Origin: Xylanimicrobium pachnodae JCM 13526 = NBRC 107786
Lineage (GTDB): Bacteria; Actinomycetota; Actinomycetes; Actinomycetales; Cellulomonadaceae
Assembly (NCBI GenBank): GCA_001592145.1
Contig: BCWJ01000002.1
Location: forward strand, 124,001 to 188,000
Direction of reading: 5' to 3'
DNA: 64,000 nucleotides
The notes beneath the pieces are model-generated. The model was not told where the DNA came from. It did not search any database and worked only from the letters and a program-made list of their open reading frames with translations. Positions 20,112-25,845 of this stretch are shown piece by piece (position 1 is the stretch's first letter; every line of letters begins with the position of its first letter). The position numbers were made by a program, and so were the translations under genes.

Positions 20112-20816
20112 TCAGTGTGCCGTCTGCTGCGACGCGGTGTACTCGGCGATCGCCTTGTCCAGCGCGGGTCGCAACCGTGCGACCGCAGCCGCATCGGGGT
20201 GGGCCGCGAGGGCCTCCAGGTGCTGCCTGGCCTCGTCCGGCCGGCCGGCCTCCAAGGCGGCAAGCACCATCTGACCGCCCACCGCGCTGTCGTGCTCCCG
20301 GGACCGCCAGTGACCGACGCCGAGGCTCAGCGCCTCCCCCGGCAGCCCGGCGTCCCGCAGGATCTCCAGCCCGGCGGCCAGCGCCTCTCCCGCAGGGTCG
20401 CGGTCGGCGGCCGTCGCAAGGCGTCGCACCGCACCCTCCGGATCCGAAGCCAGCGACAGCCGGCCCAGCTCGATCAGCGGGTACCAGGCCCGCGGATGCC
20501 CCGCGAGCTCGGCCGCGAGCGCCCACACGGCCACCTCTTCGGCGCGCTGGCGCTGTTCGGCGGCCGTCTCGTCGTCCGCCGGAGCGGTCAGCGGGTCCTC
20601 GGGGTTGGCGGACGCGACGGCCCGGCGGCGCACGAGGTCGGCGAGGGCGTCGAACGCCCGCACGTCGTTGGGGTCATCGATCAGCATGGTGCGCAGGGCG
20701 TCCTCCAGGACGGTCTCGCCGCGGCGGTGGTCCGGCGGCTGTGGTCGACGCGCACCTGCTGTGGCGGCCGCGAACGGCCGGCGCAGCAGCGAACGTATCC
20801 GGGGCATCAAAGCCAT
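20112..20816 (-). CDS. TPR-like helical protein
   Basis: The 234-residue product begins MALMPRIRSLLRRPFAAATA, a basic amphipathic start, followed by alanine-rich helical repeats. Examples are EEVAVWALAAELAGHPRAW and DPEGAVRRLATAADRDPAGEA, with a final ALEAGRPDEARQHLEALAAHP. The repeat pattern resembles degenerate tetratricopeptide repeats, usually protein-interaction scaffolds. No specific family is recognised. ATG 20816 is chosen; frames extending further upstream run into the fasR promoter. It is convergent with aceE and divergent from fasR, so it may share the fasR promoter region. Confidence 0.7.
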   Translation of the reverse strand: MALMPRIRSLLRRPFAAATAGARRPQPPDHRRGETVLEDALRTMLIDDPNDVRAFDALADLVRRRAVASANPEDPLTAPADDETAAEQRQRAEEVAVWALAAELAGHPRAWYPLIELGRLSLASDPEGAVRRLATAADRDPAGEALAAGLEILRDAGLPGEALSLGVGHWRSREHDSAVGGQMVLAALEAGRPDEARQHLEALAAHPDAAAVARLRPALDKAIAEYTASQQTAH

Positions 20817-20890
20817 GCCTTGACCATATCCACATCCCACGCCGGTGGGACCTCCCCGCTGGGTCAAACCGAGCGATTCTTCTGGCAGGT

Positions 20891-20907
20891 TTGTCGCTTC
20901 TCCACAA
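20891..20907 (+). promoter_or_regulatory. Degenerate FasR-type site upstream of fasR
   Basis: TTGTCGCTTCTCCACAA matches the perfect palindrome found before fabD (22198-22214) at 11 of 17 positions, with both ends conserved. A GGCAGGTTYGT block accompanies both sites (20884-20894 and 22224-22234). It lies 43 bp before the fasR start. Autoregulation is inference. Confidence 0.4.
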
Positions 20908-20950
20908 GAGCCTCCCGGGTTTCGCGCCCGTCCCCCCGTATCCTCGTGCC

Positions 20951-22195
20951 GTGCCCGCCAACTCTGCCCACACCGTTCCCGACACCGGGCCCGCCGCCGC
21001 CCGCGACGCGGAGCCCGACGCGGGGGCCGATACGCAGCGGCGGGCGGCGACCGTACAGCGGGTCCGCGAGGGGACGGGCGTCCTGACGGCCGCGGCGCTG
21101 CACCGCCTGGACGAGGAGCTGCCCTGGTATCGCGGCCTGCCCGCCGAGGAGCGCTCCTACGTGGGCATGGTCGCGCAGTCCGGCATCACCTCGTTCGTGA
21201 CCTGGTTCGCGGACCCGTCCGGCACGCCCACCGGCGTCGGCGAGATGTTCTCCGCGGCGCCGCGCGAGCTGACGCAGTCGATCTCGCTGCAGCACACGCT
21301 CCAGCTCGTGCGGCTGATGGTCGACGTCGTCGAGACGCACGCCGACCAGATCGCGGCGCCTGGCGCGGAGCGCGAGGTGCGCGAGGCGGTGCTGCGCTAC
21401 TCGCGCGAGGTCGCGTTCTCGGCGGCCGAGGTCTACGCGCGCGCCGCCGAGATGCGCGGTGCCTGGGACGCGCGCCTGGAGGCGCTCGTGGTCGACGCGC
21501 TGGTGCGCGACGATCCCGGCGGCGACGGCCTCGACAGCATCCGCTCGCGCGTGTCCGCGCTCGGTTGGTCGGGCACCGGGCAGACCCTCGTCGTCGTCGG
21601 GACGGCGACGACGGCGCTGGACGAGCTGCGCACGGCGGACCTGCGCCGGGCGGCGCGGCGGGTAGCGGGCGACGCCCTCGTGGGCATCCACGGCGACCGC
21701 ATCATCCTGGTGCTGGGCGGGCAGAGCGACCTCATGGCGGCGGCGTCGGCGCTGCTGCCGAAGTTCGGCCCGGGGCCTGTCGTGGTGGGCGGCCTGGTGC
21801 CGTCCGTCGCGGAGGCGTCCCGGTCGGCCGCGGCGGCGTTGTCGGGGCTGGCCGCGGCTCCGGCGTGGCCGCACGCCCCGCGTCCGGCGCTGGCGGACGA
21901 CCTGCTGCCCGAGCGGGTGCTCATCGGGGACGAGTCGGCGCGCACCCAGCTGGTCGAGCAAGCGTACCGGCCGCTCCTGACGGCGGGCGCCGCCGTGCTG
22001 GAGACCTTGTCGGCCTACCTGGGCAACGGCCGCTCGTTGGAGGCGGCGGCCCGCGAGCTGTACGTGCACCCCAACACGGTGCGCTACCGCCTGCGCAAGG
22101 TCTCCGAGATCACCGGCTGGGACCCGCTGGACGCACGGGAGTCGTTCGTGCTCCAGGTGGCCCTGGCGCTGGGCCGGCTCGCGACGGCGGCATGA
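20951..22195 (+). CDS. fasR: FasR-like PucR-family activator of fatty-acid synthesis
   Basis: A 414-residue regulator whose C-terminus (about 350-414) is a PucR-type HTH: LSAYLGNGRSLEAAARELYV, then HPNTVRYRLRKVSEITGWDP. The upstream domain has a GGDEF-like degenerate PucR sensor fold. In Streptomyces the equivalent gene (fasR, directly upstream of fabDHPF) activates that operon; position and domain match here. GTG 20951 has no ribosome site, but a TATCCT element ends 6 nt before it, suggesting a leaderless transcript. The gene precedes fabD by 86 bp, with a palindrome between them. Confidence 0.88.
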   Translation: MPANSAHTVPDTGPAAARDAEPDAGADTQRRAATVQRVREGTGVLTAAALHRLDEELPWYRGLPAEERSYVGMVAQSGITSFVTWFADPSGTPTGVGEMFSAAPRELTQSISLQHTLQLVRLMVDVVETHADQIAAPGAEREVREAVLRYSREVAFSAAEVYARAAEMRGAWDARLEALVVDALVRDDPGGDGLDSIRSRVSALGWSGTGQTLVVVGTATTALDELRTADLRRAARRVAGDALVGIHGDRIILVLGGQSDLMAAASALLPKFGPGPVVVGGLVPSVAEASRSAAAALSGLAAAPAWPHAPRPALADDLLPERVLIGDESARTQLVEQAYRPLLTAGAAVLETLSAYLGNGRSLEAAARELYVHPNTVRYRLRKVSEITGWDPLDARESFVLQVALALGRLATAA

Positions 22196-22197
22196 CG

Positions 22198-22214
22198 TTG
22201 TGGGAATCCCACAA
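22198..22214 (+). promoter_or_regulatory. Palindrome between fasR and fabD
   Basis: A perfect 17-bp inverted repeat (TTGTGGGA-A-TCCCACAA) starts 3 bp after the fasR stop and 68 bp before fabD. A likely operator for FasR or another lipid-responsive regulator at the fab operon promoter; a related site precedes fasR. Confidence 0.65.
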
Positions 22215-22281
22215 GCCGTCTCCGGCAGGTTCGTGCCCGTCGGTACGGTGCACAGCGCGGCACGTCTGACAACGTTGACCC

Positions 22282-23241
22282 GTGCTTGCCGTCGTCTGCC
22301 CTGGACAGGGCTCCCAGACTCCCGGAATGCTCGCCCCCTGGCTTGAGCTGCCGGGCGTCGCCGAACAGCTCGCCGCGTTGTCGGCTGCCGCCGACAGTGA
22401 CCTGGTCGCCCACGGCACGACGTCCGACGCGGACACCATCCGGGACACCGCCGTGGCCCAGCCGCTCATCGTGGCCTCGTCGCTGCTCGCGCTGCGCGTC
22501 ATCCTCGACGGCCGTGCCGCGTCCGACGTCGTCGACGTCACCGCCGGTCACTCGGTCGGCGAGATCTCCGCGGCCGCCGTCGCGGGCGTGCTCGACGACG
22601 CCGGAGCGGTGGGCCTGGTGGCGCGCCGCGCGCAGGCCATGGCCCGGGCGGCGGCGGCCGCACCCTCGGGGATGAGCGCGGTGGTCGGCGGAGACCCGGC
22701 CGAGGTGCTGGCCGCGATCGAGGCCGCCGGGCTGTGGCCGGCGAACGTCAACGGCGCCGGCCAGACGGTGGCGGGCGGCGCGCTCGATGGTCTCGGACGG
22801 CTCGCGCAGCACCCGCCCACCCGCGCCCGTGTCATCCCGCTCCAGGTGGCCGGTGCGTTCCACACGCCGTTCATGGACGCCGCCCGCGAGGAGTTCGCGC
22901 CCGTCGCCGCCGCGTGGCCCGCGAACGACCCGCAGCTCACGTTCCTCGCCGATGCCGACGGTGCCCCCCACGGGGACGCCGCGACCACCCTCGCGACGAT
23001 CGCCGCGCAGGTCACCGCGCCCGTGCGCTGGGACCTGGTCATGGACGAGCTCGCCGCCCGCGGGGTCACCGCCCTGCTCGAGCTCGCCCCCGGCGGGGTG
23101 CTCACCGGGCTCGCCAAGCGCGCCCTGAAGGGCGTCGAGCTGGTCGCCGTGAAGTCACCCGCCGACGTCGAGGCCGCGCGCGACCTCATCGAGCGTCACT
23201 CCCTGGCCGCCGCCGGGGCAACCGAAGGAGCCGCGCAATGA
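22282..23241 (+). CDS. fabD: Malonyl-CoA:ACP transacylase
   Basis: A 319-residue acyltransferase with GQGSQ at 8-12, nucleophile motif GHSVGE with Ser91, and AFHTPFM (about 193-199) carrying the catalytic His. It loads malonyl groups onto AcpP for chain extension. GTG 22282 gives the conserved MLAVVCPGQG start. The stop overlaps fabH in an ATGA, so the two are coupled. First gene of the FasII operon fabD-fabH-acpP-fabF. Confidence 0.96.
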   Translation: MLAVVCPGQGSQTPGMLAPWLELPGVAEQLAALSAAADSDLVAHGTTSDADTIRDTAVAQPLIVASSLLALRVILDGRAASDVVDVTAGHSVGEISAAAVAGVLDDAGAVGLVARRAQAMARAAAAAPSGMSAVVGGDPAEVLAAIEAAGLWPANVNGAGQTVAGGALDGLGRLAQHPPTRARVIPLQVAGAFHTPFMDAAREEFAPVAAAWPANDPQLTFLADADGAPHGDAATTLATIAAQVTAPVRWDLVMDELAARGVTALLELAPGGVLTGLAKRALKGVELVAVKSPADVEAARDLIERHSLAAAGATEGAAQ

Positions 23242-24308: not shown

Positions 24309-24557
24309 ATGGCTTTCAGCAACGAAGAGATCCTCGAGGGCCTCGCCGAGATCGTCGCCGAGGAGACCGGCCTGCCCACCGACGCCGTCCAGCTCGGCAA
24401 GTCCTTCACCGACGACCTCGACATCGACTCGCTGTCGATGATGACGATCGTGACGCACGCCGAGGACAAGTTCTCGGTGCGCATCCCCGACGAGGAGGTC
24501 AAGAACCTCAACACCGTCGGCGACGCCGTCACCTACATCGCGGGCGCCCAGGCCTGA
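24309..24557 (+). CDS. acpP: Acyl carrier protein
   Basis: An 82-residue acidic helical protein. The phosphopantetheine site is Ser41 in DLDIDSLSMM, and the sequence KFSVRIPDEEVKNLNTVGDAV is typical of helix II-III. It carries the growing chain between Fab enzymes. ATG 24309 has AAGAAGGAACC a few bases upstream, a strong ribosome site matching the high level of ACP needed. Confidence 0.97.
   Translation: MAFSNEEILEGLAEIVAEETGLPTDAVQLGKSFTDDLDIDSLSMMTIVTHAEDKFSVRIPDEEVKNLNTVGDAVTYIAGAQA

Positions 24558-24600: not shown

Positions 24601-25845
<1,245 letters not shown>

Follow-up and report, generated by a model that had tools for sequence, protein, structure and literature searches.

An inverted repeat lies on either side of fasR in the window, i.e. 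the whole stretch of 64,000 nucleotides of Xylanimicrobium pachnodae DNA that was analysed, and the locus raises the question of which protein reads these repeats and which genes it controls by doing so. fasR (20951..22195, plus strand) is located directly upstream of fabD (22282..23241, plus strand; PF00698), the first gene of the putatively regulated operon, and fabD is followed by fabH, acpP (24309-24557), and fabF (24601-25845). On its other side, fasR shares a gap of 134 bp with a divergent gene (20112..20816, minus strand) that had no Pfam match and to which no function was assigned. The annotations of fabH, acpP, and fabF, and those of fabG, fabI, accD, birA, and accBC below, were made by eye from the translations except where a search is named.

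A Pfam scan of FasR returned only a PucR C-terminal helix-turn-helix domain (PF13556, E 3.7e-23) and a GGDEF-like domain (PF17853, E 4e-13), and no TetR DNA-binding domain, the mark of the TetR-type FasR of Corynebacterium glutamicum and Mycobacterium tuberculosis, was found. FasR matched the crystal structures of MabR (PDB 9f80, E 8e-53; 9fb1, E 1.5e-18), with residues 7-167 aligning by phmmer, a comparison of sequence, to the globin-like N-terminal domain in 9fb1 (N-MabR). We regard this PucR-type regulator as a homolog, and probably an ortholog, of MabR (Rv2242). At three loci of one genus in family f8 (L119, L120, and L121), the FasR match was split in two with a gap near residue 258, as if there were an insertion inside the GGDEF-like region.

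The first-pass annotation of this DNA had described a perfect palindrome 3 bp after the fasR stop and a weaker copy, matching at 11 of 17 positions, 43 bp before fasR. Both placements were confirmed. The first repeat, TTGTGGGAATCCCACAA (22198..22214, no strand assigned), starts at the third base past the stop codon at 22193-22195 and covers -84 to -68 from the fabD GTG, while the second, TTGTCGCTTCTCCACAA (20891..20907, no strand assigned), covers -60 to -44 and ends 43 bases ahead of the fasR GTG at 20951, the 11/17 agreement being reproduced by eye. The description of the second repeat as weaker did not hold, since both repeats match all eight core bases of TTGT-N9-ACAA; the site before fasR had been scored as weak because all 17 bases were compared, including the N9 spacer. 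This spacer is not fixed in the family.

Exact TTGT-N9-ACAA occurs at only two places in the window, namely the fasR-fabD gap and the region before fasR, and at eight places in the whole 4.0-Mb genome. Shuffling produced it by chance in 29 of 20,000 trials with the fasR-fabD gap and in 11 of 20,000 with the gap before fasR. When the TTGTGGGAATCCCACAA palindrome was searched with a free centre, one match with up to three mismatches was found in 64 kb, as against 0.09 expected from shuffles. Palindromy by itself was dropped as evidence, because the window holds ten perfect 8-1-8 palindromes, TTGTGGGAATCCCACAA among them. The reversed control, AACA-N9-TGTT, outnumbered the box in this genome (27 vs. 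8 exact matches) and was also the commoner of the two in nine of ten other genomes of the window's family; this pattern may be recognised by a different regulator.

The core shared by the two boxes is that of a published operator. According to the available part of PMC5541348, MabR is an activator that recognises TTTTGT(N)9ACAAAA, and the FasR of Streptomyces coelicolor, which is called its ortholog there, has a highly similar predicted inverted repeat at about -67 from the transcription start. MabR also binds a 23-mer containing TTGT-N9-ACAA, as stated in the accessible text of PMC11617747. The suggestion of the first-pass annotation that the motif could define the site of PucR-type FasR was thus anticipated by these reports; the operator class is already known, since the MabR/FasR site has been published and both boxes match its core. 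On sequence, the operators of the window are ordinary in kind and belong to the published MabR/FasR type.

FasR was found, at E 1e-30 or better, in 129 of the 149 genomes of the order. For the 129 fasR loci read, the upstream region was scored at 124 and the fasR-fabD gap at 114; 14 loci were without a downstream fabD match. Upstream of fasR, the exact box with the N9 spacer was present at 75 of the 124 loci vs. 0-3 for spacers N4-N8 and N10-N15, and in the gap, at 53 of 114 loci vs. 0-2 for other spacers. The motif search across fasR-fabD gaps that had been proposed earlier recovered the box with at most one mismatch at 93 of the 114 order loci (vs. 2-14 at the other spacers from 4 to 15), and the box was not found at this threshold in 21 of these gaps. 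A second set consisted of 80 named GTDB loci, mostly of Cellulosimicrobium, Isoptericola, Promicromonospora, and Cellulomonas, of which at least 10 are the same records as in the order set. The exact upstream box was present in 68 of the 80, and the gap box with at most one mismatch in 68 of 79, one locus that ends at a contig edge (L355) being left out of the gap count. Nine of the 11 named loci in whose gap no box was found belong to Isoptericola or Xylanimonas.

At the class level, 60 loci from 168 FasR-positive genomes were read, picked to spread over families and not at random. The gap box (at most one mismatch) was present at 50 of them, in 47 cases with its end 67-70 bp ahead of fabD, and the exact upstream box at 16 of the 60. 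The gap box was found in 6/6 loci of family f35 and 8/8 of family f22. In the named set, it was likewise found at the 5/5 loci from Actinopolymorpha (two), Kribbella, Nocardioides, and one Nocardioidaceae genome, where the exact upstream box was present in 0/5.

As the inverted repeat of the window starts right past the fasR stop, it might be taken for a transcription terminator or another RNA hairpin of fasR, with no protein site involved. A loop of one base cannot be a hairpin loop, and the loop of this palindrome has only one; no T run follows it, and the same box lies upstream of fasR, fabG, accD, and accBC in many genomes. Among 115 loci with fabD, 93 had a box starting 61-95 bp before the start codon, and all 93 fell at 80-86 bp, while the place of the box relative to the fasR stop varied, from within fasR itself to over 100 bases past the stop. 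The terminator reading was rejected because the distance between the box and fabD is nearly fixed, and we leave it hardly any probability. In family f7 (L088, L089, L092, and others), the last fasR codons contain the fabD box, and the same bases thus serve both as operator and as part of the gene.

Returning to the box as a protein-binding site, a FasR/MabR-type operator is present at activator distance from fabD, the transcription start being placed by inference. A candidate -10 hexamer of fabD, CAACGT (22270..22275, plus strand), was picked out by eye 6 bases before the GTG and is weak. The alignment suggests that fabD is leaderless, in which case the box would be centred near -76 and a second, weaker dyad near -42. 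Positions near -76 and -42 are typical of activators. The second dyad, CGT-N10-ACG (22232..22247, no strand assigned), starts inside TTCGT (22230-22234) and covers about -50 to -35 of fabD. TTSGT stood at an offset of exactly 32 from the box start at 36 of 93 loci, with a single occurrence at other offsets from 20 to 59, and the dyad SGT-N10-ACS stood at offset 34 at 30 of 93 loci, as against 0-6 for other spacers from 6 to 14. In three loci of family f19, TTGT-N9-ACAC occupied the place of the second dyad. This dyad may offer FasR another point of contact, or it may belong to the promoter that is activated.

The boxes had also been described as paired with GGCAGGTTYGT blocks. Both blocks are present, but they are placed differently relative to the boxes and are not conserved: GGCAGGTTTGT (20884..20894, plus strand) extends into the left arm of the box before fasR, while GGCAGGTTCGT (22224..22234, plus strand) begins 10 bases past the fabD box, consists of the first half of the fabD dyad together with unconserved bases, and is conserved only in its TTCGT end. 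Among the 124 upstream regions and the 114 gaps, the complete block turned up once each, both times at the window's own locus, and bare GGCAGG in 22 of 124 and 24 of 114, respectively. The block was thus ruled out as part of the motif, and its pairing with the boxes is an accident of the window's genome. It was also considered as the site of the TetR regulator SCO3201, TGGCAGATTCTGCCA (available part of PMC7324645), and set aside, as only the left half is similar, the remainder misfits, and the block is not conserved.

Upstream of fasR, a probable -10 hexamer, TATCCT (20939..20944, plus strand), lies 6 bases before the GTG and points to a leaderless promoter. At all 75 order loci that have the upstream box, TANNNT precedes an in-frame start codon by 5-8 bases. 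The count uses the first such start, so that chance cases are possible; four are wrong (L049, L052, L058, and L070), as an ATG directly after ACAA gives -1 there and a later start is taken as the true one. The right edge of the box lay at -21 to -24 of fasR at 44 of these 75 loci and at 63 of 68 named loci. In the window, it lies at -44, shifted away from the gene by about 22 bp, or two helical turns, compared with most relatives. An edge at -43 to -45 was also found in Xylanimonas oleitrophica, in Puerhibacterium puerhi, and in two genome bins, one of them from the Promicromonosporaceae. With a FasR site placed ahead of its own gene, autoregulation is implied. Since the box overlaps the -35 region in most relatives, repression of fasR is predicted there; from the more distant box of the window, FasR may act with either sign.

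FasR might bind both boxes while the upstream box serves the divergent gene and not fasR. The 134-bp gap is common to both genes, the box stands 75-91 bp ahead of the probable start of the divergent gene, and homologs of this gene were found on the opposite strand at 40 of the 129 loci, many of which had only 500 upstream bases. Against this, the distance between box and fasR is narrow, as the clustering at -21 to -24 shows, and the box is present without a detected divergent homolog at five loci for which more than 1200 bases upstream were available. We therefore consider this assignment improbable, and control of fasR remains the preferred role of the upstream box. The divergent gene itself, judged by eye, is apparently leaderless too.

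Twelve genomes of the order that have fabD and are without FasR were available for comparison; they represent three genera, with nine in one genus, and two second matches (L297 and L298) were excluded. No box with at most one mismatch was found within 250 bases at any of the 12 main fabD promoters of these genomes. Two of the genomes are from family f6, in which FasR-positive members do have the fabD box. In the same family, the exact accBC box was present at 7 of 8 FasR-positive loci, and the two FasR-less members were without an accBC box. Thus, the earlier proposal of FasR operators and autoregulation gains support, as judged from sequence, from boxes conserved at the expected places across the order and from the missing fabD box in FasR-less genomes.

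It is conceivable that the boxes are read by a different regulator that co-occurs with FasR. The boxes are linked to FasR through sequence, and the recognition helix of FasR is common to many PucR-type proteins, both of which would allow for such a regulator. In addition, SCO3201 binds the S. coelicolor fasR promoter when over-expressed, at a different palindrome, according to the accessible part of PMC7324645. The boxes, however, flank fasR itself and match the site bound by MabR (PMC11617747, available text), and they are missing before fabD in the FasR-less genomes described above. We regard a co-travelling regulator as very improbable and FasR as the probable reader of the boxes.

Boxes were also found outside the locus. 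The genome of the window has an exact box before fabG-fabI, one of its six exact matches outside the window. A fabI search matched 97 of 149 genomes, and the best 30 of the 97 loci were read: in the window's family, the fabG-fabI box was present with at most one mismatch at 10 of 11 loci, 6 of them exact, with no exact match at other spacers, and outside this family, it was found at 0 of 18 scored loci. An accD search matched 54 of 59 genomes; among the best 30 loci read, 7 had an exact box and 11 had one with at most one mismatch (a spacer control was run), and in three genomes of one genus, the exact box lies between accD and birA. The accD-birA box of the window's genome has one mismatch, as does its accBC box, TTGGGGGGTTCCCACAA. 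In a first accBC set, 20 of 29 loci had an exact box and 26 had one with at most one mismatch (L408 was left out), and among 30 further order loci, these numbers were 8 and 11, respectively, with 19 loci without a box. The accBC box was found at 0 of 12 main upstream regions of FasR-less genomes, one of which had only 92 readable bases. Among 16 main loci of FasR-positive genomes of the class outside the order, it was absent from 13 and present with one mismatch in 3. Upstream stretches of 400 bases were searched for the FasR-less and class-level accBC loci and of 300 bases for accD, fabG, and both order sets of accBC; L412 and L454 had fewer than 100 bases upstream, and two accBC paralogs (L437 and L438) were not counted. 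Because the genome of the window contains 209 one-mismatch matches, its own accD and accBC boxes are weak when taken alone and rest on the comparison with other genomes.

In the first accBC set, 15 of 16 pairs of boxes (at most one mismatch) were 53 or 54 bases apart, and the accD pairs were 54 or 55 bases apart in 3/3 cases, which corresponds to roughly five helical turns. No pair was present among the 30 order loci of the second accBC set. In the genome of the window, no second box with at most one mismatch was found 52-55 bp from any of its five boxes, the best candidate being one at accD, at 53 bp, with 6 of 8 core bases. MabR has been reported as a dimer and a tetramer, with the dimer favoured on DNA (available part of PMC11617747), which speaks against a bound tetramer at the acc pairs. 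Some further matches were inspected. No lipid synthesis gene was recognised at L134, L137, and L138 (open frames searched) or at L139 and L140 (local DNA searched). One exact box of the window's genome, TTGTAGGGTTTCGACAA, at positions 2958-2974 of L143 (contig C16; L137/L143), lies near a gene for a ROK-type kinase, again with no recognised lipid gene next to it, and we claim none of these places as FasR targets. A near match (L003) was rejected as a target because it is inside a coding frame, and an exact match of genome G043 (L181) because it is beside a different gene.

Taken together, we are confident, though short of certain, that both repeats are operators of PucR-type FasR, which would activate the fab operon, control its own gene, and govern a wider regulon of acc genes and fabG-fabI. 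A FasR dimer would read TTGT on one strand and TTGT nine bases on, on the other strand. The fabD promoter is probably leaderless, and its box, at about -84 to -68, would lie upstream of RNA polymerase; FasR would therefore activate fabD-fabH-acpP-fabF from there, probably aided by the weaker dyad near -42. The second box would put fasR under the control of FasR, and the supply of malonyl-CoA and chain elongation would then be set together by FasR. Binding of MabR is modulated by acyl-CoA longer than C18 (PMC5541348, accessible part), and by analogy, we infer that long-chain acyl-CoA may be the signal of FasR. A broader model, which we favour only slightly over its negation, extends these roles to a large part of the order: FasR would be an autoregulated master of fasR, fabD-fabH-acpP-fabF, accBC, and accD-birA, together with fabG-fabI in the window's family, activating fab from -76 and repressing or tuning itself, while at some acc promoters two dimers bound on the same face 53-55 bp apart would cooperate or loop through a dimer-tetramer equilibrium of the MabR type.

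Two features appear less ordinary than the operator type. The comparison of families suggests a conserved autoregulatory operator without counterpart in two other sampled families (f22 and f35), and the box is predicted at acetyl-CoA carboxylase genes in several families. No report of autoregulation of PucR-type FasR or of boxes at accBC, accD, or fabG-fabI was found among the matches listed, in a search that lay outside most subscription papers, including the original 2010 papers on FasR and MabR. The present data provide a precise, testable definition of the FasR operator in a group for which the matches listed held no FasR study, and they suggest that the families of the model organisms are apparently without the autoregulatory site. 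They also name acetyl-CoA carboxylase genes as likely targets of FasR; before the LysR-type regulator of 2024, some acc operons had confirmed regulators from the TetR family only, according to the available part of PMC11602165. The fixed spacings of the boxes also allow natural DNA to be used for testing in which oligomeric mode a PucR regulator binds.

Among known systems, the TetR-type FasR of Corynebacterium glutamicum is similar in that acc and fas genes are under joint control (PMC10933834 and PMC11602165, as far as available); it differs as a TetR-family repressor with another operator, so that the resemblance ends with the name and some of the function. The fasII promoter of Mycobacterium, with MabR (Rv2242), is closer: its regulator is a homolog with the same three-part architecture, is encoded directly upstream of fabD, and has an operator with the core TTGT-N9-ACAA at activator distance. 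MabR differs in that it governs mycolic acid elongation, with no MabR site found before mabA-inhA or fabH, according to the available part of PMC5541348. Family f22, inferred to be mycobacterial from its low FasR identity, differs in having the exact box upstream of the regulator at 0 of 8 loci and a one-mismatch box at one. FasR of S. coelicolor (SCO2386) resembles the FasR of the window as an activator of fabDHPF with a highly similar predicted repeat (PMC7324645 and PMC5541348, available parts). Family f35, which has genomes of 6-11 Mb and is Streptomyces-like by this size only, differs in that the exact box upstream of fasR was present at 0 of 6 loci; its accBC genes had a one-mismatch box at 3/3 main loci. 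These comparisons suggest, at the level of sequence, a known kind of operator serving a regulon that is enlarged and in part lineage-specific.
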